A DNA stretch of 64,000 nt from Candidatus Fermentithermobacillaceae bacterium (GCA_012840345.1 DULO01000066.1:21571-85570); one strand, 5' to 3'. Shown: positions 1,846-62,507, counted from the first letter of the stretch. The notes: a model not told the origin generated them from the letters alone. Translations and numbers: made by a program.

Positions 1846-4146
1846 ATGGCTGAGTGCGTAACCCCAAAAGACCCGGCTCCCCTTTGGAGACAGATGGGCT
1901 TAAAAGATGAAGAGTACAGCATGATCGTGGAGAAGCTCGGCAGGGAGCCCAACTACACGGAACTTGGAATGTTCGCGGTGCTTTGGTCGGAGCACTGTGC
2001 CTATAAGCACTCAAAATCGCTCCTTCGGACCTTGCCCACCAAGGGCGAGAGGGTAATGGTAGGACCCGGGGAGAACGCCGGAGTGGTGGATATCGGCGAC
2101 GGGCTCGCGTGCGCGTTCAAAGTGGAGTCCCACAACCATCCTTGCGCCGTTGAACCCTATCAAGGAGCGGCGACCGGCATCGGAGGCATCGTGAGGGATA
2201 TCTTGGCCATGGGCGCGAGGCCGGTGGCGCTCTTGGATTCGTTGAGATTTGGTCACTTGGATGACGCCAGGACGCGGTTTCTGTTTGGCGGCGTCGTCTC
2301 GGGAATCGCCGGATACGGCAACTGCTTGGGTATTCCGACCGTGGGCGGCGAAGTCTACTTCCAAGCGCCCTACAGGCAAAATCCCTTGGTGAACGTGCTC
2401 TGCGCCGGGATTATGGATCACAAGGACCTTCACAAGGGTCAGGCCTACGGCGTTGGAAACGTGGTTATGATCGTGGGGCACTCGACCGGACGTGACGGCA
2501 TCCACGGGTGCACGTTCGCGTCTGAGGAGTTGGGCGAGGACACCGAGTCCAAGAGACCCAACGTGCAAGTGGGAGACCCGTTCATGGAGAAGCTCCTCAT
2601 TGAGGCCTGCCTGGAAATGATGCAGAAGGGCGCCGTCGTAGGCATCCAGGACATGGGCGCCGCGGGCATCACCTCTTCGTGCGCGGAGACCGCCGCCAGA
2701 GCGGGCACTGGCCTTGCTATCGAGGTTTCCAAGGTACCCATGCGGGAAGAGGGCATGACCGCCTACGATGTGATGCTTTCTGAAAGCCAGGAGCGGATGC
2801 TCCTCATCGTGAAGCCCGAGAAGGTAGAGGAAGTCAAGGCTATAGGCAAAAAGTGGGGGCTTAACGCGGCCGAGATCGGGCAGGTGACCAGTTCCGGGCA
2901 GTTGCAGGTATTCCACAACGGTAAGCTCGAAGCCTCGATCCCGGTTAATCTCCTGGCCGAAGGCTCCCCCGTATATAATCCCGAATGGAAGGAACCCGCT
3001 TACTTCAGTGAAAACCAGCGCTTTGACTATAGCGCCGTCAAGGTTCCTGAGCTCAAGCAGTTTGGAGAAATCCTATTGAAACTTCTGGCCGCTCCCAACA
3101 TCGCGTCCAAGGAGCCGGTTTTTAGGCAGTACGATTACATGGTGCGGACCGACACGGTCCAGGGTCCTGGAGGCGGCGCCGCTCTCATAAGGGTGAAGGG
3201 GACAACCAAAGCAATGGCCATCGCCACTGACTGCAACGGCCGGCTTGTCTACCTGAACCCCAAGGCCGGCGCGAAGTGGGCGGTGGCGGAGGCGGCGCGG
3301 AACGTGGCCATCACCGGGGCTAAGCCAGTGGCCATCACCAACTGCCTGAACTTCGGAAATCCGGAGAAGCCAGAGATATACTGGCAGTTCAAAAACGCCA
3401 TCGAAGGAATGGCTGAAGCTTGCCTCGCCCTGTCTACTCCGGTTACGGGCGGCAACGTCAGTTTCTACAACGAGACCGAGGGAGAGGCCGTCTACCCGAC
3501 TCCCGTAATAGGAATGCTGGGAGTCCTTGATGATGTCAGCAAGAAGGTAACCCCCGGCTTCAAAGCTACCGGTGACGTGATCGCCCTGCTCGGCACAATC
3601 AGCGGCGACGCGGTCTCCCTCGCCGGCAGCGAGTATTTGGAGACGGTCCACGGCGCTGTCGCCGGGTGCCCGAGAGATCCCGACCTCGCGCTTGAAAAGA
3701 GCTTGGTCGATGTCTTGGTCAAGGCGGCGTCCGAGGGGCTTCTAAGGTCCGCTCAAGACCTGTCTGAAGGCGGGTTGGCAGTTGCCCTTGCCGAGTCTTG
3801 CATCTTGGCAGAGAAGGGCGCGGATGGCGCCGTCATTGAACTGGGCGGCACGGGGTGCAAAGCGGTCGCGGACCATCGCCCGGACGCCGTGTTGTTTGGA
3901 GAGTGCAACTCGGCTGTCGTGGTCAGCTTGGTCGAAGAAGACGTTTCCCGTCTCAAGGAGATTTGCGGAGAGCTTGGGGTACCCTTCGGCGTGCTGGGTA
4001 AAGTGAGTGGATCATCTTCTTTGAGGATAGAGAGTTGCATGGGCACCGCGGTTTTGGACGTTCAGGTCAGCGAGTTGCGGGATGTTTGGAAAAACGGTTT
4101 GTTGAGAGCGATGGCGGGCGATACCGCGAGAGGAACAACTGAATAG
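1846..4146 (+). CDS. purL: Phosphoribosylformylglycinamidine synthase subunit PurL
   Basis: 766 aa small-type PurL: LGREPNYTELGMFAVLWSEHCAYKHSK, VGPGENAGVVDIGDG, KVESHNHPCAVEPYQGAATGIGGIVRDI. Confidence 0.96.
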   Translation: MAECVTPKDPAPLWRQMGLKDEEYSMIVEKLGREPNYTELGMFAVLWSEHCAYKHSKSLLRTLPTKGERVMVGPGENAGVVDIGDGLACAFKVESHNHPCAVEPYQGAATGIGGIVRDILAMGARPVALLDSLRFGHLDDARTRFLFGGVVSGIAGYGNCLGIPTVGGEVYFQAPYRQNPLVNVLCAGIMDHKDLHKGQAYGVGNVVMIVGHSTGRDGIHGCTFASEELGEDTESKRPNVQVGDPFMEKLLIEACLEMMQKGAVVGIQDMGAAGITSSCAETAARAGTGLAIEVSKVPMREEGMTAYDVMLSESQERMLLIVKPEKVEEVKAIGKKWGLNAAEIGQVTSSGQLQVFHNGKLEASIPVNLLAEGSPVYNPEWKEPAYFSENQRFDYSAVKVPELKQFGEILLKLLAAPNIASKEPVFRQYDYMVRTDTVQGPGGGAALIRVKGTTKAMAIATDCNGRLVYLNPKAGAKWAVAEAARNVAITGAKPVAITNCLNFGNPEKPEIYWQFKNAIEGMAEACLALSTPVTGGNVSFYNETEGEAVYPTPVIGMLGVLDDVSKKVTPGFKATGDVIALLGTISGDAVSLAGSEYLETVHGAVAGCPRDPDLALEKSLVDVLVKAASEGLLRSAQDLSEGGLAVALAESCILAEKGADGAVIELGGTGCKAVADHRPDAVLFGECNSAVVVSLVEEDVSRLKEICGELGVPFGVLGKVSGSSSLRIESCMGTAVLDVQVSELRDVWKNGLLRAMAGDTARGTTE

Positions 4147-4223
4147 CGAAAAACGACACTACGGAACAACAAGGGAATAGCAGCCAGAAACGCCAAGCAA
4201 CCGAATGGCGGTTAGGTTCCCCC

Positions 4224-4263
4224 ATGCCCTCATGGTCTATGACCATGGGGGCATTGTTTCTTA
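4224..4263 (+). terminator. Rho-independent-like terminator after the pur operon
   Basis: ATGCCCTCATGGTC-TAT-GACCATGGGGGCAT (14-bp stem with one G-T, 3-nt loop) followed by TGTTTCTT. Confidence 0.8.
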
Positions 4264-4414
4264 TGCTGAAAATCCCATCTAGCAGGCATTATGCCACACA
4301 TTAACTGTGCTATGGGGAAGGACGAGCCTGTATAATCCCCAAATGTGATCGTCTACGGTTGCGTCATTGCGCCGTCCATGTGCCAGAGGATGCAGCTTGA
4401 GGAGGAGGTAGTTT

Positions 4415-10819: not shown

Positions 10820-12040
10820 ATGGTTTTGGAAGCGGCACGGAAGCTCCAGGGACAGATCGTCGCATGGAGGCGGGAAGTCCATCAAAACCCGGAGCTGGGT
10901 CTAGAGACACCGATGACTGAAGCTCTTGTAGCCAAAGCGCTGTCGGATATGGGGATTGAGGTTCGTACAGGAGTGGGCGGACATGGAGTCGTCGGTCTGC
11001 TCCGGGGGACCGGCAGGGTGGAACAAGCCGAGGACGGGGGTCAAGAGTCGGCGCCTCCAGTCAAGACTTTTGCCATTAGGGCAGACATGGATGCGCTTCC
11101 CGTCACCGAAGAAACTGGGTTACCCTTCGCGTCCAAGATTCCGGGACGAATGCATGCGTGCGGTCACGATGCCCACGTCGCGATGCTGCTTGGCGCCGCG
11201 AAGGTACTCTCCGATATGAAGGACAAGGTGCGCGGGAACGTCAAGTTCATCTTTCAGCCCGGCGAGGAGGGCCCTGGCGGAGCTCATCCGATGATTCTTG
11301 ACGGCGCCTTGGAAGACCCGAAGGTTGATGCGATCATCGGTGCTCACGTCGGCCCGTTGTGGGACGTTGGCCCCGGCCAGATTGGGTTTAGGACCGGTCC
11401 CGTGATGGCCGCCACGGACCGCTTTGCTGTGAGAATCCAAGGCAAGGGCGGTCACGGCGCTGCCCCTCATTACTCGGTGGACCCGGTAGTCATCGCGGCT
11501 CAGATAGCCGTGTCGCTGCAGACCATCGTATCCAGGGAAGTGAGCCCGATATCTCCCGCCGTGGTCACCGTCGGGATCATCAAAGCCGGCACGGCCCCCA
11601 ACATTATTCCGGATTACTGCGAGATGAACGGCACTGTCAGATACCTTGACAAGTCGTTGGCTTCTTTCATCCCCCGGCGGATTAAAGAAATCTGCGAGGG
11701 GATCGCCTCAGCTATGAGAGGTACCGCGACGGTGGAGTACACTCACGGATACCCTCCGCTCGTAAATGACCCCGGGATGACCGATTTCGTGAGGAAGGTG
11801 GCTGCGTCCATCGTTGGGCCCGAGAACTGCGTGGAAGTCCAGCCGACCATGGGCGGTGAGGACATGGCCTACTTCCTCAATGAGGTTCCCGGCGCGTATT
11901 TCGCGCTTGGAACCCGAAATCCGGACAAACGCGCGGACTTCCCGAACCACCACCCGAAGTTTGACATTGATGAAGACGTACTGTACCTGGGCTCAGCGGT
12001 GTTTGCTCAGGCCGCGATTGATTTCTTGGCCCGGGAGTAG
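10820..12040 (+). CDS. M20 family amidohydrolase / N-acyl-L-amino-acid amidohydrolase
   Basis: WRREVHQNPELGLETPMTEALVAKAL, IRADMDALPVTEETGLPFAS, MHACGHDAHVAMLLGAAKVL, FQPGEEGPGGAHPMI, MGGEDMAYFLNEVPGAYFALG. Confidence 0.93.
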   Translation: MVLEAARKLQGQIVAWRREVHQNPELGLETPMTEALVAKALSDMGIEVRTGVGGHGVVGLLRGTGRVEQAEDGGQESAPPVKTFAIRADMDALPVTEETGLPFASKIPGRMHACGHDAHVAMLLGAAKVLSDMKDKVRGNVKFIFQPGEEGPGGAHPMILDGALEDPKVDAIIGAHVGPLWDVGPGQIGFRTGPVMAATDRFAVRIQGKGGHGAAPHYSVDPVVIAAQIAVSLQTIVSREVSPISPAVVTVGIIKAGTAPNIIPDYCEMNGTVRYLDKSLASFIPRRIKEICEGIASAMRGTATVEYTHGYPPLVNDPGMTDFVRKVAASIVGPENCVEVQPTMGGEDMAYFLNEVPGAYFALGTRNPDKRADFPNHHPKFDIDEDVLYLGSAVFAQAAIDFLARE

Positions 12041-26018: not shown

Positions 26019-26083
26019 TTGTAGTTCCCCCTTACGTAGTATCAAGGGGGACCCCCGGGGAAAATCTGTCTCCGATCTTCCAA

Positions 26084-26211
26084 GATCTTCTACCATCCGG
26101 ACTATACCGTCGGTCCCGGAGTTCCACCGGGTCAATCGCTGTCGCGAGTCGCGGACTTTTACCGCCGGTGAGGAATCGCGGCCGTAGCCGCTCACCTCGC
26201 CCCGAAGATCC
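26084..26211 (-). promoter_or_regulatory. FMN (RFN element) riboswitch
   Basis: Minus strand: GGATCTTCGGGGCGAGGTGA...ATTCCTCACCGGCGGTAAAAGTCCGCGA...GCGATTGACCCGGTGGAACTCCGGGACCGACGGTATAGTCCGGATGGTAGAAGATC. Confidence 0.95.
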
Positions 26212-26417
26212 TCTCCACAATGGACACTCTAGCACGAAGTAGGGGCCAGTTCAACACCGGGTTGTTCGGGAGGTTAGCCAAGCCGGTCGTCCAGGGTTTT
26301 GAAAACCAACGTGACCCGAGGCCCACTCCGAGTTTGTGTGATAGGATCTTCACCAGAGGATGTTACCGATACGGTTGGACGGTCATTTTGCATACCGCTA
26401 CGGCTAGGAGGACACGA

Positions 26418-53711: not shown

Positions 53712-53741
53712 TTGACATTTACTGAGAATTTACTGCATAAT
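53712..53741 (+). promoter_or_regulatory. Putative sigma-A promoter upstream of the ydaO riboswitch
   Basis: TTGACA (53712) - 18 bp - CATAAT (53736). Confidence 0.65.
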
Positions 53742-53769
53742 GTAACCCGTGGGATACCACGTAGCTCGT

Positions 53770-53905
53770 TCCGTCTGATCGCTGAATCTCCGTTAAGGAG
53801 AGCGGGGGACCCAATTACTTGGGGCTAATCACCTGCTGAGACAGGTGTAGGGCCACGCCCTTCGGCCCGAGCCCGTCAGCTAACCTCGTAAGCGTGGTAA
53901 GGATT
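53770..53905 (+). promoter_or_regulatory. ydaO-yuaA class (cyclic-di-AMP) riboswitch
   Basis: GATCGCTGAATCTCCGTTAAGGAGAGCGGGGGACCCAATTACTTGGGGCTAATC...AGGGCCACGCCCTTCGGCCCGAGCCCGTCAGCTAACCTCGTAAGCGT matches the conserved ydaO core. Confidence 0.93.
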
Positions 53906-54201
53906 GGCGGCCTCTTTAGGCGGCTACATAACCGCCCTGCGGTTGATCCACCACCTCATGACAGCGGTTTTCAGAGCTGTGGAATCGTCGCCTTGTCTCA
54001 CTGTGGGCAGATTCGCCCAAGACCTGGCGACGCGGGTGCTGCGGAATGCCCCGTACTAGGTAACCGGGTGTCGCTATGGCGCGGCATTCCGGAGACTCTC
54101 GGTATCCTTTTGCGCCCTAGAGCTTGATCAGGCACGCCCTGGATCTTTTGGGGACGTGAGCGCGAGAGCCGGCGAAGAGCAAGAGAAGGAGGAAGGCTGC
54201 C

Positions 54202-55173
54202 ATGCGCGTAGCCGTAGTCACCAACCAGATAGGGGACACCCAGCTCAACAGGCTGGATCCCCATGCCGCGGAACAAGCCGAAGTGACCCTCCGAGCGGTC
54301 CTTGAGGCGTTACGCGAGTTGGGACACGAGGCCATCCCCGTGGAGGTGCGTCCATCGCTTCTCATTGACCTTCAAAACGTAGCGCCCGACGCCATCTTCA
54401 ACATAGCGACAGGGTACAGGTCCAAGCGTGACCAGGCCAATATAGTGGCCACTTTGGAGCTCTCGGGGATTCCGTTCACCGGGTCGTCTTTTCGCGCTCA
54501 CGTGATGGGGCTCCATAAGTATCTCACAAAGTTCATCATGGAGATGGCTGATATCCCCACGCCCGGTTTCTGTGTGGTTGACGCGAACCGGAAAATGCCT
54601 TCCCAAGAGCGGCTGTCCAAGCTCAAACTGCCCGTCATCGTTAAGCCGGGAGCGGAAGGCTCCAGCTTGGGCATAACCCAAGACAGCGTGACCGGCGACC
54701 TGTCCAAGGTTCCCGGCTTGGTACAGGACCTTTTGGATCGTTTCGGTCCCCCGGTCCTTATCGAGGAGTACATCGACGGGCGAGAGTTCACGGTCGGACT
54801 GTTGGGATACCCTGAGCCTGCGGTCTTGCCGGTAGAAGAGATCGTGTTCAAAGAGGGCGCGATGTACACCTACGCGGTCAAGTCGAGGGACAGAGTCACT
54901 CCGGTCTGCCCGGCGGACATCCCTGAAGAGCTTGCCCTGGAGATCCAGTCAATCGCCAAGAGGGTCTTTGAGGCGCTTGACTGCCGGGATTTGGCCAGGG
55001 TGGATATCAGGTTGTCCAGAGACGGACGGCCCTACGTATTGGAAATCAACACGCTGCCGGGGCTCATGCCCGGTTACAGCGAGTTCCCCCGTATCGCGCA
55101 GATAGCGGGCTACGACTACAAGTCTCTGGTCCAAAAGATCTTGGAAGGGGCGCTCTTGAGGCGGGGCGCTTAG
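54202..55173 (+). CDS. D-alanine--D-alanine ligase-like ATP-grasp protein
   Basis: KYLTKFIMEMADIPTPGF, LPVIVKPGAEGSSLGI, VLIEEYIDGREFTVGLLGYPE, ARVDIRLSRDGRPYVLEINTLPGLMPGYSEFPRIAQIAGYDYKSLVQKIL. Confidence 0.9.
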   Translation: MRVAVVTNQIGDTQLNRLDPHAAEQAEVTLRAVLEALRELGHEAIPVEVRPSLLIDLQNVAPDAIFNIATGYRSKRDQANIVATLELSGIPFTGSSFRAHVMGLHKYLTKFIMEMADIPTPGFCVVDANRKMPSQERLSKLKLPVIVKPGAEGSSLGITQDSVTGDLSKVPGLVQDLLDRFGPPVLIEEYIDGREFTVGLLGYPEPAVLPVEEIVFKEGAMYTYAVKSRDRVTPVCPADIPEELALEIQSIAKRVFEALDCRDLARVDIRLSRDGRPYVLEINTLPGLMPGYSEFPRIAQIAGYDYKSLVQKILEGALLRRGA

Positions 55174-55212
55174 CGAGAGGAACTCTAACACTCTACGGAA
55201 GGAGGCGTTAAG

Positions 55213-56331
55213 ATGGCAGAGTACTTTTTGACAGAATCGATTCACTCAACTCCAAACTACGTAGTGATTGGCGCGGGGAACGGTGGCCAAGCCATGGCCG
55301 GTTTCCTGGCGATGAGAGGTTTTGGCGTCAATCTATGGAACAGGTCCGCGTCGGTCGTGGAGAGGATCAACGAACTAGGCGGCATCCAGCTTGAGGGCCA
55401 TTACTCCGGATTCGCCGTTCCCAATCTTATAACCCACGACATTGACGAGGCTCTGGACGGCGCAAGGGTAATCATGGTTACCGTGCCCGCGTCGGCCCAC
55501 AGCGCGGTCGCGCGCGAAATGGCCAGGAGCCTAAAGGACGGGCAGATAGTGGTCCTAAACCCGGGGAGGACCGGCGGAGCTTTCGCTTTCAGGCGTGACT
55601 TGGAGAGAGCGGGCTGTAAAGCCGACGTTGTCTTAGCCGAGGCCGGGACTTTCATCTACGCGAGCCGTACCAAGGAGCCGGGCCGGTCCCACGTCTACGG
55701 CGTGAAGAAGCACGTGAGCGTAGCCGCGCTGCCAGCTCACAGGACCATGGACGTGCTGAGGGCCTTAAGACCCGCGTTTCCCCAGTTCATTCCCGCGGAG
55801 AGCGTGCTCGCTACGAGCCTGGACAACATGGGAGCCATATTTCATCCCGCCCCGACTCTCCTAAACGCGGGCAGAATTGAGAAAAACGAGACCTATGACC
55901 ATTACAAGACCGGGATTACCCCTGCCGTAGCCAACCTGCTCCAGAAGATGGACGAAGAGCGGCTGGCTATAGCTCATGCGCTCGGGACACCCGCCCGGTC
56001 AGCTATGGAGTGGCTAAAAGATACTTACGGCGCAGCCGGCGAGGACCTGTACACGGCCATTCAAAACAACCCCGCGTACGACGATATCAAGGCCCCCAAA
56101 TCTTTGGATACAAGATATATCACCGAGGATATTCCCTTCAGTCTGATACCGCTAATCGCCTTGGGTCAGGCGGCGGGAGTGGCCACGCCTGTCCTCGAGA
56201 CTGTCGTGTCCCTGGCCGAGAGCATGTTCAATTGCGATTTTCGGTCCACCGGCCGCGGGGCGGAGGAGATGGGGATTGCCGGTCTTAACGCCCGGCAAAT
56301 ATCGGCTCTGGCTTTGGAAGGAGTGTGCTAG
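55213..56331 (+). CDS. NAD/NADP-dependent octopine/nopaline dehydrogenase-like protein
   Basis: YVVIGAGNGGQAMAGFLAMRGFGVNLWNRS, VLAEAGTFIYASR, NMGAIFHPAPTLLNAGRIE (opine dehydrogenase-like N-P-x order). Confidence 0.9.
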   Translation: MAEYFLTESIHSTPNYVVIGAGNGGQAMAGFLAMRGFGVNLWNRSASVVERINELGGIQLEGHYSGFAVPNLITHDIDEALDGARVIMVTVPASAHSAVAREMARSLKDGQIVVLNPGRTGGAFAFRRDLERAGCKADVVLAEAGTFIYASRTKEPGRSHVYGVKKHVSVAALPAHRTMDVLRALRPAFPQFIPAESVLATSLDNMGAIFHPAPTLLNAGRIEKNETYDHYKTGITPAVANLLQKMDEERLAIAHALGTPARSAMEWLKDTYGAAGEDLYTAIQNNPAYDDIKAPKSLDTRYITEDIPFSLIPLIALGQAAGVATPVLETVVSLAESMFNCDFRSTGRGAEEMGIAGLNARQISALALEGVC

Positions 56332-58086
56332 ATGATGGCTAACGCGCGTGAGAAAGCCAAAATCAAAGGTTTGATGCTTGGCGCGGCCATGGGAGACTGC
56401 GTGCACGTGGCAGGCGTACTGAATTTTCTTAGGCTCGCGTCCGCGGAAGGCTTTAGAACCGAGTTCCTCGGCGCGGCCAAATCCCCCGAGGAGATCGCCG
56501 CGGCAGCGCGAGAACGCAAGGCTGACTACGTGGCCGTAGGCTATCGTTTAGACCCTAAGGCGGCGGAGAATCTATTTGCCAGGCTTCGCGCGTCCCTTAA
56601 ATCCCAGAACGTCTCTCCCAAGTTGCTGTTTGGCGGTACCCCTCCGGTCGCCGATGCCGCCTCACGCAGCGGTATGTTCGAACGGGTCTTCTCGGGGAAA
56701 GAAGACGTGGATGAGGTTATCGCCTACTTGAAAGGAGGACGCCCGGAGGGTAAAGCGGTACGCTACCCTGACAACCTGGTAGACCGGATCTTGGAGAAAA
56801 CCCCTTATCCGATCCTCCGGCACCATTTCGGATTGCCTTCCGTGGCGGCCACCGTGGACGGTATCAGGCAGATCGCTTTGGCCCAAGTCTTGGACGTTAT
56901 TTCCCTCGGACCTGACCAGAACTTCCAGGAGAGTTTCTTCAGACCGGAAAACATGGACAGGGATCAAGACGGCGCGGGCGGAGTGCCTATACGCTCGGCT
57001 TCCGACCTCCAGAGCCTCTATGCCGCGAGCAGGTGCGGGAACTACCCGTTGATGAGGTGCTACAGCGGGACTCAGGACGTCATCCGCATGGCCGAACTTC
57101 TGCGGGACACCATTCACAACGCGTGGGGAGCCATTCCGCTGTTTTGGTATAACGTGCTGGACGGCAGAGGGCCAAGGGAAGTAGAGCAATCGATCGCCGA
57201 ATCCCTCATGGCCATACGGTGGCATGCGGAGCAGGGGATTCCTGTGGAAGTCAACGAGTCTCACCACTGGAGCTTGAGGGACGCGCCCGACGTGGTCGCG
57301 GTGGCGGCGGCTTACTTGGCCGCGTACAACGCGAAGAAGGCCGGCGTCAGGGACTACGTGTCCCAGTACATGCTGAATACACCGCCTGGGACGTCCGCGT
57401 CTATGGATCTTGGCAAGATGCTGGCAAAGGATGAACTCATAGGCAGCCTTGTTGACGATAACTTCCGGGTCTGGCGGCAAGTCAGGGCGGGTCTCTCCAG
57501 CTTCCCGACTGACCTGGGTTTGGCCAAGGGACAATTGGCTACTTCCACCCTGGTCGGGATGAACCTGCGGCCCCATATCGTCCACGTTGTGGGCTTCTGC
57601 GAAGGGGACCATATAGCCAACCCTGAGGACGTCATCGAAAGCTGCAGGATCGCCCGGGGAGTTATCCGAAACTGCCTGGACGGCATGCCGGACATGACCA
57701 GAGATCCAAAGGTGCAGGCCAGAAAACGCGAGCTGATAAGGGACGCCAAGGTTTTGTTGGCAGGACTCGCGGAAATAGCCGGTATGCTGAACAAGGACGG
57801 GCTGCCGGGTGACGTGAACGCGACCGAAGGCGCGCCCGCGCAGTACGACCCGTACACCGATCCTCATGTGCTCGCGGCAGCCGTGAAGTGCGGCCTGTTC
57901 GACGCTCCCCACCTGGCGGGCAACCCCGCGGCGTGCGGCCAAGTCGAGACCGCCATAGTCGGAGGAGCTTGCTTGGCTGTCGACCCGGTCTCTAAGAAAC
58001 CTATCCCTGAGACGGTTAGGGTGGAGATGGCCCTGGATAAGTTCAGAAGGATGGTAGACAAGATGACCGGCAAGATGACCGCATAA
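56332..58086 (+). CDS. Cobalamin-binding-domain protein with C-terminal mutase-like barrel (uncertain substrate)
   Basis: N-terminus GLMLGAAMGDCVHVAGVLNFLRLASAEGFRTEFLGAAKSPEEIAAAARERKADYVAVGYR resembles a B12-binding domain. The remainder resembles a glutamate-mutase-like TIM barrel. Confidence 0.65.
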   Translation: MMANAREKAKIKGLMLGAAMGDCVHVAGVLNFLRLASAEGFRTEFLGAAKSPEEIAAAARERKADYVAVGYRLDPKAAENLFARLRASLKSQNVSPKLLFGGTPPVADAASRSGMFERVFSGKEDVDEVIAYLKGGRPEGKAVRYPDNLVDRILEKTPYPILRHHFGLPSVAATVDGIRQIALAQVLDVISLGPDQNFQESFFRPENMDRDQDGAGGVPIRSASDLQSLYAASRCGNYPLMRCYSGTQDVIRMAELLRDTIHNAWGAIPLFWYNVLDGRGPREVEQSIAESLMAIRWHAEQGIPVEVNESHHWSLRDAPDVVAVAAAYLAAYNAKKAGVRDYVSQYMLNTPPGTSASMDLGKMLAKDELIGSLVDDNFRVWRQVRAGLSSFPTDLGLAKGQLATSTLVGMNLRPHIVHVVGFCEGDHIANPEDVIESCRIARGVIRNCLDGMPDMTRDPKVQARKRELIRDAKVLLAGLAEIAGMLNKDGLPGDVNATEGAPAQYDPYTDPHVLAAAVKCGLFDAPHLAGNPAACGQVETAIVGGACLAVDPVSKKPIPETVRVEMALDKFRRMVDKMTGKMTA

Positions 58087-58107
58087 CACTTGTCAATCGC
58101 CCGGATG

Positions 58108-58164
58108 GGCGCCGTGACCTGCGAAGCATGTCGCAAGACTAACCGGCACGCAGGTCACGGCGCC
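58108..58164. other. Long hairpin downstream of the cobalamin-binding protein gene
   Basis: GGCGCCGTGACCTGC (58108-58122) and GCAGGTCACGGCGCC (58150-58164), perfect 15-bp inverted repeat, 27-nt loop. Confidence 0.8.
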
Positions 58165-58286
58165 GACCAATTGTTTCCATTGACTTCCATCCATTCCTCA
58201 CGGTAGAATCCTGTGGCTCGATTTGACCCCAGTTGAGATGACCCTCCAATGAACGAACTCTGTTGGCAGGCAAGCGAGGGGATACC

Positions 58287-59558
58287 GTGTCCTTGATTCT
58301 ACGCGAGTACAGGCGCGTCTATAGCGGACTCAATGGGAACGTCAGGCTGATGCTCCTCTATTACTCTCTCATCGCCCTGGGAAGCGGGATTTCCGGCGTG
58401 CTCCTCAATCTATACCTTCTGAAAGCCGGTTTGGATGAGGCGTTCTTAGGCACGCTTACCTCAGTTCAGTACACGGTCATGGCTTTGGCGGTCCTGCCCA
58501 TGGGGCTCGCGGCCGACCGGGTCAGAAAGCACTTGCTGGTAAAGGCCGGCTTTTGGATTCTGAATGCCGGCATGACGGGGGTATTGCTTACCACGGACCC
58601 CAGAGCCTTGATAGTCGCGTACTGCCTACAAGGACTCGGTTGGGCGATCGCTGCCGCGTCCGAGTATCCTTACCTCAGCGAGAATACCCAAGCGTCCGAA
58701 AGGACCCATGTTTTCTCCATGGTAGCGGTACTCTACGCGATAATGCCCTCAATAGGCACACTGACCGGCGGCTATCTGCCCGCGATAGCAGGCGGTATCT
58801 TGGGTGTGCAAGGCGACTCATCGCCGGCGTTCCGAGGCGCATTGTCTATCGGTGTGCTGGCATCGTGGCTCGCGGGGCTGGGTGTCGTGAGGCTTACGGA
58901 TAGTCCCAAGGATGAAGCCGGGCACAACGGTCCTCACGTGTTGTCACTAAAAGTATCAAGACCTGCGGTTGTGCTTGGTTTGGCCATGAACGCGGGGTTC
59001 GTAGGCCTAGGAGCGGCCATGTTTGTCCCATACATGAACGTGATCCTAGACTCCAAGTTCGCGCTGGAGACCCATGTGATCGGGTGGATTATGACGGCGC
59101 AGAACATGGTGTTGGCTCTCGGCACCTTGGTTGTCCCCAGACTCTCGGAGAGAAAGGGCCCGGCCATGACTGTAGTCCTGCTTCAGGGGCTCAGCGTTCC
59201 GGCGCTTCTGATCATGGCCTTTACCTCAAGGCTCCTGCTCTTTGTGGCGGCCTTTATATGGAGAGGCTGTCTTATGAACATGGCCGTACCGTTACTCGAC
59301 ACCTTTTCCATGGGAGTTGTGCGAAGCGAGGAAAGAGGCGTGGTAAACGCGACTTTGGGCTTGGCCAGAAACATCACTTGGGCCATAGGAGGCAAAGTGG
59401 GCGGCAACCTTCTGCGAGACAAGATGTTCGCGAGCCCCATGCTGTTAGCTTCGGCGTGCTACGCGGTGGGCATTTTGGCACTGTTTGTCATGAGAAACTG
59501 GACGCTAACCCGTACCGGCGAAGCGAGAATCGAAGAGGGGCGACACGATCCCGGCTAA
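58287..59558 (+). CDS. MFS transporter
   Basis: 12-TM pattern; LPMGLAADRVRKHLLVKAGF. GTG 58287 with GAGGGG upstream; ORF extends to 58263. Confidence 0.88.
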   Translation: MSLILREYRRVYSGLNGNVRLMLLYYSLIALGSGISGVLLNLYLLKAGLDEAFLGTLTSVQYTVMALAVLPMGLAADRVRKHLLVKAGFWILNAGMTGVLLTTDPRALIVAYCLQGLGWAIAAASEYPYLSENTQASERTHVFSMVAVLYAIMPSIGTLTGGYLPAIAGGILGVQGDSSPAFRGALSIGVLASWLAGLGVVRLTDSPKDEAGHNGPHVLSLKVSRPAVVLGLAMNAGFVGLGAAMFVPYMNVILDSKFALETHVIGWIMTAQNMVLALGTLVVPRLSERKGPAMTVVLLQGLSVPALLIMAFTSRLLLFVAAFIWRGCLMNMAVPLLDTFSMGVVRSEERGVVNATLGLARNITWAIGGKVGGNLLRDKMFASPMLLASACYAVGILALFVMRNWTLTRTGEARIEEGRHDPG

Positions 59559-60343: not shown

Positions 60344-61726
60344 ATGTTTAGACCCAGAGACGAATATGCCGAACCCTACAGGATCAAGATGGTGGAGCCT
60401 ATCAGGCAAACGACCCGGGAGGAAAGGGAAGCCCTCATCAGTCAGGCGGGGTACAACCTGTTCTCTTTGCCTTCCGAAGCCGTCTACATTGATTTACTCA
60501 CAGATAGCGGAACCTCCGCCATGTCCGACGCCCAATGGGCCGCGCTCATGAGGGGCGACGAGGCTTACGCGGGGAGCCGCAGCTATTTCCATCTCAAAGA
60601 AAGCATCAAGGACATCATGGGTTTCGATTACGTGATCCCCACTCACCAGGGGCGCGGGGCCGAGCACGTCTTGATGGCGGCTATGGTCAAGCAGGGAGAC
60701 CGTGTGCTGGGCAACATGCACTTTGACACAACTGAAGGGCACATACTGTTGAGGGGCGCGGAGCCGGTTAATTGCCTCCGGGATGTGGGGTACAGGGTCT
60801 CCGAGGACGTGCCGTTCAAGGGCGACTTCGACCTGGAGAAACTCAGGCGTGAAATCGAAAAGGACCCCCGGACTGTGCCTTTTGTGCTGATCACGGTCAC
60901 GTGCAATAACAACGGCGGCCAACCGGTTTCAATGAAGAATATAAAGGCGGTAAGCCGGATCGCCAAAGAGTACGGCATCCCGGTGTTTTTCGACGCGGCC
61001 CGTTTCGCCGAGAACTGTTACTTCATCAAGCACCTTGAGGAGGGTTACGCGGACAAGAGCATTCGGGAGATTGCCAGGGAGATGTTCTCCTACGGCGACG
61101 GATGCACCATGAGCGCCAAGAAAGACGCCCTTGTCAACATAGGCGGGTTCTTGGCTACCAACAACGAGTCGATTTACCGCAAGGCCATCGAGTGGCAGAT
61201 TCCCTTTGAGGGGTTTGTGACCTACGGCGGGTTGGCTGGCAGAGACATGGAAGCGATGGCAGTCGGGCTCCAAAGCGTGCTGGACGAACTCTACCTAGAG
61301 GACCGCATAGGACAGGTGCGCTATCTGGGCGAGCTGCTCATCGAAGCCGGCATTCCCATCGTCCGGCCTACCGGAGGGCATGGAGTCTACCTAGACGCCG
61401 AAGCCATGCTTCCTCATCTTCGCCGTGACCATTTTCCCGCCCAGTGCTTGGCCGTGGAGCTTTATATCGAGGGCGGAATAAGAGGGGTTGAGCTGGGCGG
61501 CTGCGCTTTCGGACGCGAAGACCCGGTGACCGGGGAAGCCATCTGGCCCGAGTTGGAGCTGGTCAGGCTGGCCGTTCCTAGACGCGTGTACACAGACCGG
61601 CATATGAAGATGGTCGCTTCGGCTCTAGCCCGGGTGAAGGAAAGGGCTCACGAGATAAGAGGGCTAAAGCTGACCTACCAAGCGCCGGTCTTGCGCCACT
61701 TTACCGCTAAGTTCGCGAGAGAATAA
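60344..61726 (+). CDS. Tryptophanase / tyrosine phenol-lyase family (beta-eliminating lyase)
   Basis: YIDLLTDSGTSAMSDAQWAALMRGDEAYAGSRSYFHLKESIKDIMGFDYVIPTHQGRGAEHVL, SYGDGCTMSAKKDALVNIGGFL, VLRHFTAKF. FDAARFAENCYFIK is closer to TnaA. Confidence 0.93.
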   Translation: MFRPRDEYAEPYRIKMVEPIRQTTREEREALISQAGYNLFSLPSEAVYIDLLTDSGTSAMSDAQWAALMRGDEAYAGSRSYFHLKESIKDIMGFDYVIPTHQGRGAEHVLMAAMVKQGDRVLGNMHFDTTEGHILLRGAEPVNCLRDVGYRVSEDVPFKGDFDLEKLRREIEKDPRTVPFVLITVTCNNNGGQPVSMKNIKAVSRIAKEYGIPVFFDAARFAENCYFIKHLEEGYADKSIREIAREMFSYGDGCTMSAKKDALVNIGGFLATNNESIYRKAIEWQIPFEGFVTYGGLAGRDMEAMAVGLQSVLDELYLEDRIGQVRYLGELLIEAGIPIVRPTGGHGVYLDAEAMLPHLRRDHFPAQCLAVELYIEGGIRGVELGGCAFGREDPVTGEAIWPELELVRLAVPRRVYTDRHMKMVASALARVKERAHEIRGLKLTYQAPVLRHFTAKFARE

Positions 61727-61729
61727 AGC

Positions 61730-62218
61730 TCAGTGTTTCCGACCGGCCGCGTTTTTCAGGACCGGTCCGAGGTAAGCCCCAATGAGGACGCCTGAGCCGG
61801 TCTGGGCTATGTTGCCGAGGATCTCTCCTGGAACGGCGGCCGGGGAATACAGTTTAGCGGTACCGGCGGCGTAACCCAAGACTATCCACACGGCCGCGGC
61901 GATCATGGCCAGAGTTTGGGATTTCCGCCCGCGTCCGTTCCCCGCGAATCCCACAATCACGCCCGCGCCTCCTTTGATGAAGAACGTCCAAGGGGCCCAC
62001 ACCGCGTATCCTGAGAGGACGTCAGCGAGAGCCGAGCCGACCGCGGCCGAAAGACCTCCCAGCTCGGGACCCAAGGCCAAAGAAGCGGCGAAAATGACGC
62101 CGTCACCCAGATGGACGTAGCCGGTGGGAGTTGGGATCTTGAGAAACATGGTCGCCACCATGATTATCGAGGCGATGACAGCGGAAAGCGTCAGGCGCTT
62201 GAGCCCGCCATTTGTCAT
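61730..62218 (-). CDS. ECF transporter S component (predicted riboflavin/flavin-related)
   Basis: VHLGDGVIFAASLALGPELGGLSAAVGSALADVLSGYAVWAPWTFFIKGGAGVIVGF; directly downstream of an FMN riboswitch. Confidence 0.87.
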   Translation of the reverse strand: MTNGGLKRLTLSAVIASIIMVATMFLKIPTPTGYVHLGDGVIFAASLALGPELGGLSAAVGSALADVLSGYAVWAPWTFFIKGGAGVIVGFAGNGRGRKSQTLAMIAAAVWIVLGYAAGTAKLYSPAAVPGEILGNIAQTGSGVLIGAYLGPVLKNAAGRKH

Positions 62219-62234
62219 ATGCGGTTCACCTCAT

Positions 62235-62360
62235 TCTTCTCCCAATCGGACTGTTGCCGTCGGCGCCGGGATCTCACCGGACTCAATCGCTGGGGCTGTC
62301 GGGCTCGCAGTCACATCCTGCATTACCGCCGGTCGGGAATTCCACCCTGCCCCGAAGACT
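62235..62360 (-). promoter_or_regulatory. FMN (RFN element) riboswitch
   Basis: Minus strand: GTCTTCGGGGCAGGGTGGAATTCCCGACCGGCGGTAATGCAGGATGTGACTGCGAGCCC...GCGATTGAGTCCGGTGAGATCCCGGCGCCGACGGCAACAGTCCGATTGGGAGAAGA. Preceded by TATAAT at 62375-62370. Confidence 0.95.
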
Positions 62361-62507
62361 GTCCAGAACATTATATCACTGCGGTGAGGCGCATAAGAGC
62401 GCCGAAATGCTAGAATACCGGCGTAAGAGATTCTTCCTGAAACAGGTTTGCCCTAAGGCGGCACGGGCCATGGCATTGATTGTGAGCGCTCCGTACAAAG
62501 TGAGGTC

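Follow-up and report, generated by a model that had tools for sequence, protein, structure and literature searches.

The stretch of DNA analysed here, hereafter the window, comprises 64,000 nucleotides of one strand from Candidatus Fermentithermobacillaceae bacterium (GCA_012840345.1 DULO01000066.1:21571-85570). It carries a cyclic di-AMP (c-di-AMP) riboswitch of the ydaO/yuaA class at the head of three genes: an ATP-grasp ligase (LIG) resembling D-Ala-D-Ala ligase (Ddl), an octopine/nopaline-type dehydrogenase (ODH) and a protein with a B12-binding domain, which we call the B12 protein (Table 1). Riboswitches of this class are known chiefly for shutting off K+ and solute import. Unlike their usual targets, which are genes of K+ and osmolyte transport and cell-wall hydrolases, the switch in the window heads a ligase-dehydrogenase-B12 trio. 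We propose, at close to an even chance, that it controls a three-gene biosynthetic operon whose product is a small solute or K+ counter-ion derived from an amino acid, and which would be switched on when c-di-AMP is low.

Table 1. Features of the riboswitch-headed operon and its 3' flank, in positions of the window.
Feature	Position	Strand	Evidence or measure
Sigma-A type promoter, TTGACA-18-CATAAT	53712-53741	+	11/12 consensus match; 0.2 expected by chance
c-di-AMP (ydaO/yuaA) riboswitch aptamer, RF00379	53770-53909	+	93.8 bits, E 8e-21
Leader, aptamer to ATG	53910-54201	+	292 nt
Shine-Dalgarno sequence of LIG, AAGGAGG	54187-54193	+	sequence
LIG, D-Ala-D-Ala-ligase-like ATP-grasp ligase, 323 aa	54202-55173	+	PF07478, E 3.3e-43
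ODH, octopine/nopaline-dehydrogenase family, 372 aa	55213-56331	+	PF02317, E 1.7e-48
B12 protein, 584 aa, B12-binding domain and glutamate-mutase-E-like TIM barrel	56332-58086	+	B12-binding domain at residues 16-120, E 1.5e-9
16-bp perfect inverted repeat at operon end, without T run	58108-58164	+	-43.9 kcal/mol, z -5.2
Major facilitator superfamily (MFS) gene	58263-59558		family scan

The first-pass annotation, made from the sequence alone, had read a ydaO aptamer behind a plausible sigma-A promoter, a Ddl-like ATP-grasp gene, an octopine/nopaline-dehydrogenase-like gene, a B12 gene whose start abuts the preceding stop codon and a strong hairpin, and each of these was recovered: The aptamer matches RF00379 over its full length (model positions 1-134) against a curated cut-off of 38 bits, the two enzyme genes match their families, and the ATG of the B12 gene lies immediately after the ODH stop codon. 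The aptamer, which is the sole c-di-AMP riboswitch in the window, was also found with a covariance model of our own, and the promoter block 5' of it is kept in the leaders of relatives from the same family. In its high-scoring, full-length aptamer and in the OFF-type terminators of its relatives, the riboswitch itself is an ordinary member of the c-di-AMP class.

These terminators indicate how the switch may work. In Thermosediminibacter, Tepidanaerobacter and their relatives an intrinsic terminator lies 3' of the aptamer, for example AAAGCTATGGTCCTCCATAGCTTTTATTTT in locus L007, and its 5' arm and loop are able to pair instead with the 3' strand of the aptamer's own P1 stem, GGAGGTTTGTAGC. 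In most of the loci tested the competing duplex of terminator and P1 beats almost every shuffled control, and strong terminators are likewise present in L037 and in both copies of L027. Because the terminator would be released by ligand binding, as in classical riboswitches of this layout, most of the relatives examined are predicted to carry a c-di-AMP OFF switch of the terminator type. For the window itself, whose leader holds only a weak terminator-like site at 54128-54142 and no convincing platform, OFF control is inferred. A translational switch by way of a 9-bp pairing between the 3' strand of P1 (53905-53913) and the start region of LIG (54194-54202) was considered and is not claimed; by eye, no complement matching this pairing is apparent in the two relatives L015 and L087.

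The association of the riboswitch with these genes recurs far beyond the window. A search with the B12 protein yielded 80 loci, hereafter the B12 loci, which span Bacillota, Actinomycetota, Aminicenantes, Armatimonadota, Chloroflexota, Gemmatimonadota, Cloacimonadota, Neomarinimicrobiota and archaea; the closest are from Candidatus Fermentithermobacillaceae (Bacillota), with B12 proteins at most 67% identical. Our covariance model, built from the aptamers of the host and its family and run over 91 sources including the window and the B12 loci, places a c-di-AMP aptamer 5' of the operon in 26 of the 80. It precedes LIG-ODH-B12 in L004, L005, L006, L015, L037 and L039 and stands directly 5' of ODH-B12 in L007, L011, L013, L014, L016, L020, L021, L023, L024, L025, L026, L029, L030, L035, L038, L047, L069, L072 and L074; it also precedes ODH-B12 in L027, where a second aptamer lies 5' of a second such pair. 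Those aptamers outside the family that were tested were confirmed with Rfam's own model. Riboswitch-headed operons also occur in Fusibacter and Armatimonadota, and the gene orders under the aptamer are LIG-ODH-B12, ODH-B12 and ODH-B12-LIG. Within the host's family all 11 testable genomes have the aptamer, two further B12-bearing genomes (G004 and G007) stopping at a contig edge. Of the 70 genomes of the class that bear the B12 gene, at least 29 carry a same-strand aptamer no more than about 4.5 kb 5' of it, a figure obtained by matching a list of B12 genes with a list of aptamers by hand; with one to eight aptamers per genome, chance would be expected to produce a fraction of one such case. 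On the tree of the B12 protein, the riboswitch label needs at least six changes, at least three of them forced by well-supported branches, which means that the link arose or disappeared several times and does not go back to a single chance event passed on by descent. That c-di-AMP controls the pathway genes is thus supported in several lineages, and the recurrence of the aptamer 5' of the operon in relatives strengthens the c-di-AMP control that had been proposed for the trio. Two loci show further arrangements: In L072 a second c-di-AMP aptamer (4114-4270, + strand) lies directly 5' of a gene for asparagine synthase B, a short way upstream of the riboswitch-ODH-B12 unit, and in L203 (G167:C41:39962-41801) a riboswitch stands directly 5' of a B12 gene that lacks an accompanying ODH gene; a second copy in that genome, of the form GlmL-ODH-B12, has no switch.

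Among the genes themselves, the dehydrogenase and the B12 protein form the most constant unit. ODH is found in the same locus as the B12 gene in 74 of the 80 B12 loci, nearly always directly adjoining it and usually with an overlap of 1 or 4 bases or a gap of a few bases; in the remaining six the contig stops within or beside the cluster. LIG shares the operon with ODH-B12 in Fermentithermobacillaceae, L037 and L012, lies near the pair in the order B12-LIG-racemase-ODH in L036 and L048, and follows it as riboswitch-ODH-B12-LIG in L193, L195 and L196. In the riboswitch-headed operons LIG thus shifts place, either 5' of ODH or 3' of B12, yet remains under the switch. Other lineages have different neighbours: An asparagine-synthase-B-type (AsnB) gene lies directly 3' of the B12 gene in L041, L062, L065 and L078, and an Orr-type racemase adjoins LIG in L036, L048 and L050. 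An assignment of the AsnB neighbours as AsnO of N-acetylglutaminylglutamine amide (NAGGN) osmolyte synthesis was rejected, as their TIGR03104 scores are well under the cut-off and their best fit is to asparagine synthase B. The pattern suggests that ODH and the mutase constitute the core, to which LIG would add an ATP-driven step. The trio read in the first-pass annotation is conserved across genomes: Failure of its three genes to co-occur elsewhere, named beforehand as a refutation, was clearly not what was observed.

The mutase fold of the B12 protein was assigned by a fold search. For its AlphaFold model (AF2, predicted local distance difference test 88.9), the best Foldseek match in the PDB is subunit E of glutamate mutase (1cb7_B, E 1.4e-16), with lysine 5,6- and ornithine 4,5-aminomutases ranking next; the protein is therefore read as an E-like barrel with an S-like B12 domain fused to its N-terminal side. 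Searches by sequence only placed just the B12 domain, matches by hhalign and with a GlmE profile of our own were weak or partial, and PF06368 (Met_asp_mut_E) has no match in the host genome and is barely over or near its cut-off in a few relatives. Partner proteins point in the same direction as the fold. In L172 the operon reads GlmL-ODH-B12 (GlmL equivalog, 593 versus 475 bits), and a sister family in the same class (L166, L167, L168, L169 and L170; 1220-1355 aa) combines the B12 domain, the mutase barrel and a MutL reactivase in one chain. On the basis of the fold, the MutL-fused sister and the GlmL in L172 we argue for an adenosylcobalamin (AdoCbl)-dependent, glutamate-mutase-like enzyme, which sharpens the earlier description as merely B12-binding and mutase-like. 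The MutL-fused protein adjoins a divergent ODH, and genes for D-aminoacylase-like amidohydrolases, a D-glutamate-cyclase-like protein and TRAP transporters lie close by; in L167 a c-di-AMP aptamer (11030-11173, + strand) comes right after the MutL-fused operon, the next protein being LIG-like by eye. The host has four genes of the MutL/GlmL family (loci L176, on host contig C134, L177, L178 and L179), all unlinked to the operon; one of the four is of the Or-4 type with an Orr-type racemase directly after it, and a lysine-5,6-aminomutase-type gene is also present.

Likeness to glutamate mutase (methylaspartate mutase, GlmS/GlmE with GlmL) ends at the substrate pocket and the cobalamin motif. 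Unlike that enzyme, the B12 protein is one fused chain with the B12 domain first, and its motif is CxHxxG instead of DxHxxG, His25 and Gly28 being invariant and Cys23 nearly so. In a distant alignment, GlmE residues Arg66, Arg100 and Arg149, which we take to be the arginine claw, and Glu171 correspond to His165, Gln199, Tyr244 and Gly266 of the B12 protein, whereas Glu330, presumably the residue contacting AdoCbl, is retained as Glu424. We rejected an identification as glutamate mutase itself, since the claw and Glu171 are not kept, the motif differs and PF06368 is not reached; judged by these residues, the B12 protein probably acts on a different substrate.

ODH is more readily placed. Its closest solved relative is N-(1-D-carboxyethyl)-L-norvaline dehydrogenase (CENDH, 1bg6), to which it aligns end to end with an E-value of 4e-85. 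His211 and Asp306, invariant in the family, align to His202 and Asp297 of 1bg6, which we take to be the catalytic dyad. ODH is thus predicted to be an octopine/CENDH-type dehydrogenase with its catalytic histidine and aspartate intact, and it differs from CENDH in having other gene partners.

LIG shares the fold of Ddl in a Foldseek comparison and has its ATP-grasp core. Of the earlier label "Ddl-like", this fold stands, and an identity as a true D-Ala-D-Ala ligase does not: LIG remains below the cut-offs of the curated NCBIfam Ddl models (198.2 versus 243 and 165.8 versus 245.65 bits), has no match to the Ddl N-terminal domain PF01820, and the motif GGxSxExxVS, which is absent from all operon LIGs, is carried by true Ddls whose genes lie on the opposite strand in L016, L020, L026, L029 and L074; moreover, the host genome has a separate true Ddl. 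A paralogue about 40% identical to LIG (L113, host contig C52) lies apart from ODH and B12 genes beside an acetyltransferase-like open reading frame (ORF), and no c-di-AMP aptamer was found there.

The Ddl fold of LIG raises the question of whether the operon makes a cell-wall component or precursor, such as a dipeptide of D-amino acids or a modified side-chain residue. The racemase next to LIG in L036, L048 and L050, a murD gene that follows B12 in L049 (by eye) and the wall hydrolase that is another c-di-AMP target in the host (by eye) fit such a role. We nevertheless consider it rather improbable, given that the host's own Ddl exists alongside operon LIGs that lack the N-terminal motif, mur genes are not recurrent neighbours, and the core pair also occurs in archaea and in many phyla that share no common wall chemistry.

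The MFS gene 3' of the trio bears on a further interpretation, in which the product is exported, for instance as an opine-type metallophore or a signalling opine, by an MFS exporter that lies 3' here and 5' in some relatives. Both the ODH family and the presence of MFS genes close to the operon, in the window as well as in L004, L005, L092, L098, L101 and L102, would suit it. The MFS homologues, however, are only about 28% identical, change position and are missing from most loci, a nicotianamine-synthase-like gene was not noticed beside the operon, and in the window the hairpin, which occurs as a single copy genome-wide, and a promoter-like site (58180-58209) set the gene apart. Export therefore appears very improbable. 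For the same reasons, namely its own promoter-like site, its location beyond the hairpin and the lack of a conserved arrangement after B12, we excluded the MFS gene from the operon of which it had first been taken as a member; it is probably separate. Further downstream are a gene of the tryptophanase/tyrosine phenol-lyase family (60344-61726, + strand) and a flavin mononucleotide (FMN) riboswitch (62230-62363, - strand, 86 bits) facing a small membrane-protein-like ORF (61730-62218, - strand); a second FMN riboswitch lies at 26081-26213 (- strand, 100.6 bits).

The host genome has one gene with a DAC domain (diadenylate cyclase, making c-di-AMP) and three c-di-AMP aptamers including that of the window. 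By ORF reading without a family scan, the second lies 5' of a SleB-type wall hydrolase gene (read by eye) and the third 5' of genes for a solute-binding protein and an oligopeptide-type ABC transporter, both in keeping with known RF00379 targets. In Bacillus subtilis, high K+ leads to repression of K+ importers through c-di-AMP riboswitches, and the nucleotide also couples K+ to glutamate (PMC7857571); in Lactococcus lactis pools of counter-ion osmolytes are overseen by c-di-AMP (PMC8092236).

We favour a product that would be an opine- or dipeptide-like solute made when c-di-AMP is low. At low c-di-AMP, as under K+ limitation or an osmotic up-shift, the operon would be turned on. The AdoCbl-dependent, glutamate-mutase-like enzyme would rearrange the carbon skeleton of an amino or keto acid, and the NAD(P)H-dependent ODH would either form a secondary-amine (opine-type) product from the rearranged compound or oxidise it. 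LIG would then couple the product to an amino acid at the expense of ATP, a finishing step that in other lineages might fall to the adjacent AsnB-type amidotransferase or Orr-type racemase, and the pathway would end in a small solute or K+ counter-ion derived from an amino acid. We read the operon as one of synthesis because it would be off at high c-di-AMP and contains an ATP-dependent ligase. By analogy only, a comparable division of labour may be seen in pyrrolysine biosynthesis, where PylB, PylC and PylD are a skeleton mutase, an ATP-grasp ligase and an NAD dehydrogenase. Unlike the trio's mutase, which is of the B12 type, PylB is a radical-SAM enzyme, and LIG resembles Ddl and not PylC: A PylC-like LIG finds no support, PylC not being among its 50 best structural matches.

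The main rival holds that the operon is catabolic, with mutase and dehydrogenase fermenting or recycling an amino acid or opine in the manner of OraSE with Ord or KamDE with Kdd, and c-di-AMP linking this breakdown to the K+/glutamate balance. Many holders of the genes are anaerobes, the host has lysine-5,6-aminomutase-type and Or-4/Orr genes, and the MutL-fused sister system sits beside deacylase, D-glutamate-cyclase-like and TRAP transporter genes. An ATP-consuming LIG, on the other hand, fits synthesis, genes for uptake or of the thiolase-type catabolic kind are not conserved beside the pair, and an OFF switch at high c-di-AMP would halt the removal of amino acids at high K+ and glutamate, where the cell would need the reverse. 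We regard a catabolic role as unlikely.

Several observations weigh against solute synthesis. The sequence gives no proof of synthesis over degradation, and the neighbours of the MutL-fused sister system make that system look catabolic. The leader in the window shows no convincing expression platform, and the idea of an MFS exporter is weak. Finally, the mutase-dehydrogenase pair is common in riboswitch-free lineages (Actinomycetota, Aminicenantes, archaea), and osmotic control would therefore be a regional add-on.

A link of ydaO to octopine or opine enzymes was reported by no paper in the open-access literature searched, a mention in the supplements of the primary ydaO papers being still possible, and nothing on the LIG-ODH-B12 trio was found there. 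That literature appears to hold no description of the controlled pathway or of the fused mutase family, the primary ydaO papers lying outside the search. In its broadest form, to which we give somewhat less than an even chance, our proposal is that of a widespread, undescribed pathway in which a new family of AdoCbl-dependent mutases, an opine-type dehydrogenase and an ATP-grasp ligase produce compatible solutes or K+ counter-ions of a new class, the pathway being turned off by c-di-AMP.

The fused protein would represent a new branch among the B12 enzymes that resemble glutamate mutase, one in which both the substrate pocket and the cobalamin motif are altered, and the role of an enzyme pair that occurs in many phyla becomes testable. 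The repeated capture of the mutase-dehydrogenase(-ligase) unit by a c-di-AMP switch across lineages would mean that the cell treats the product of this unit as part of its K+ and solute balance.

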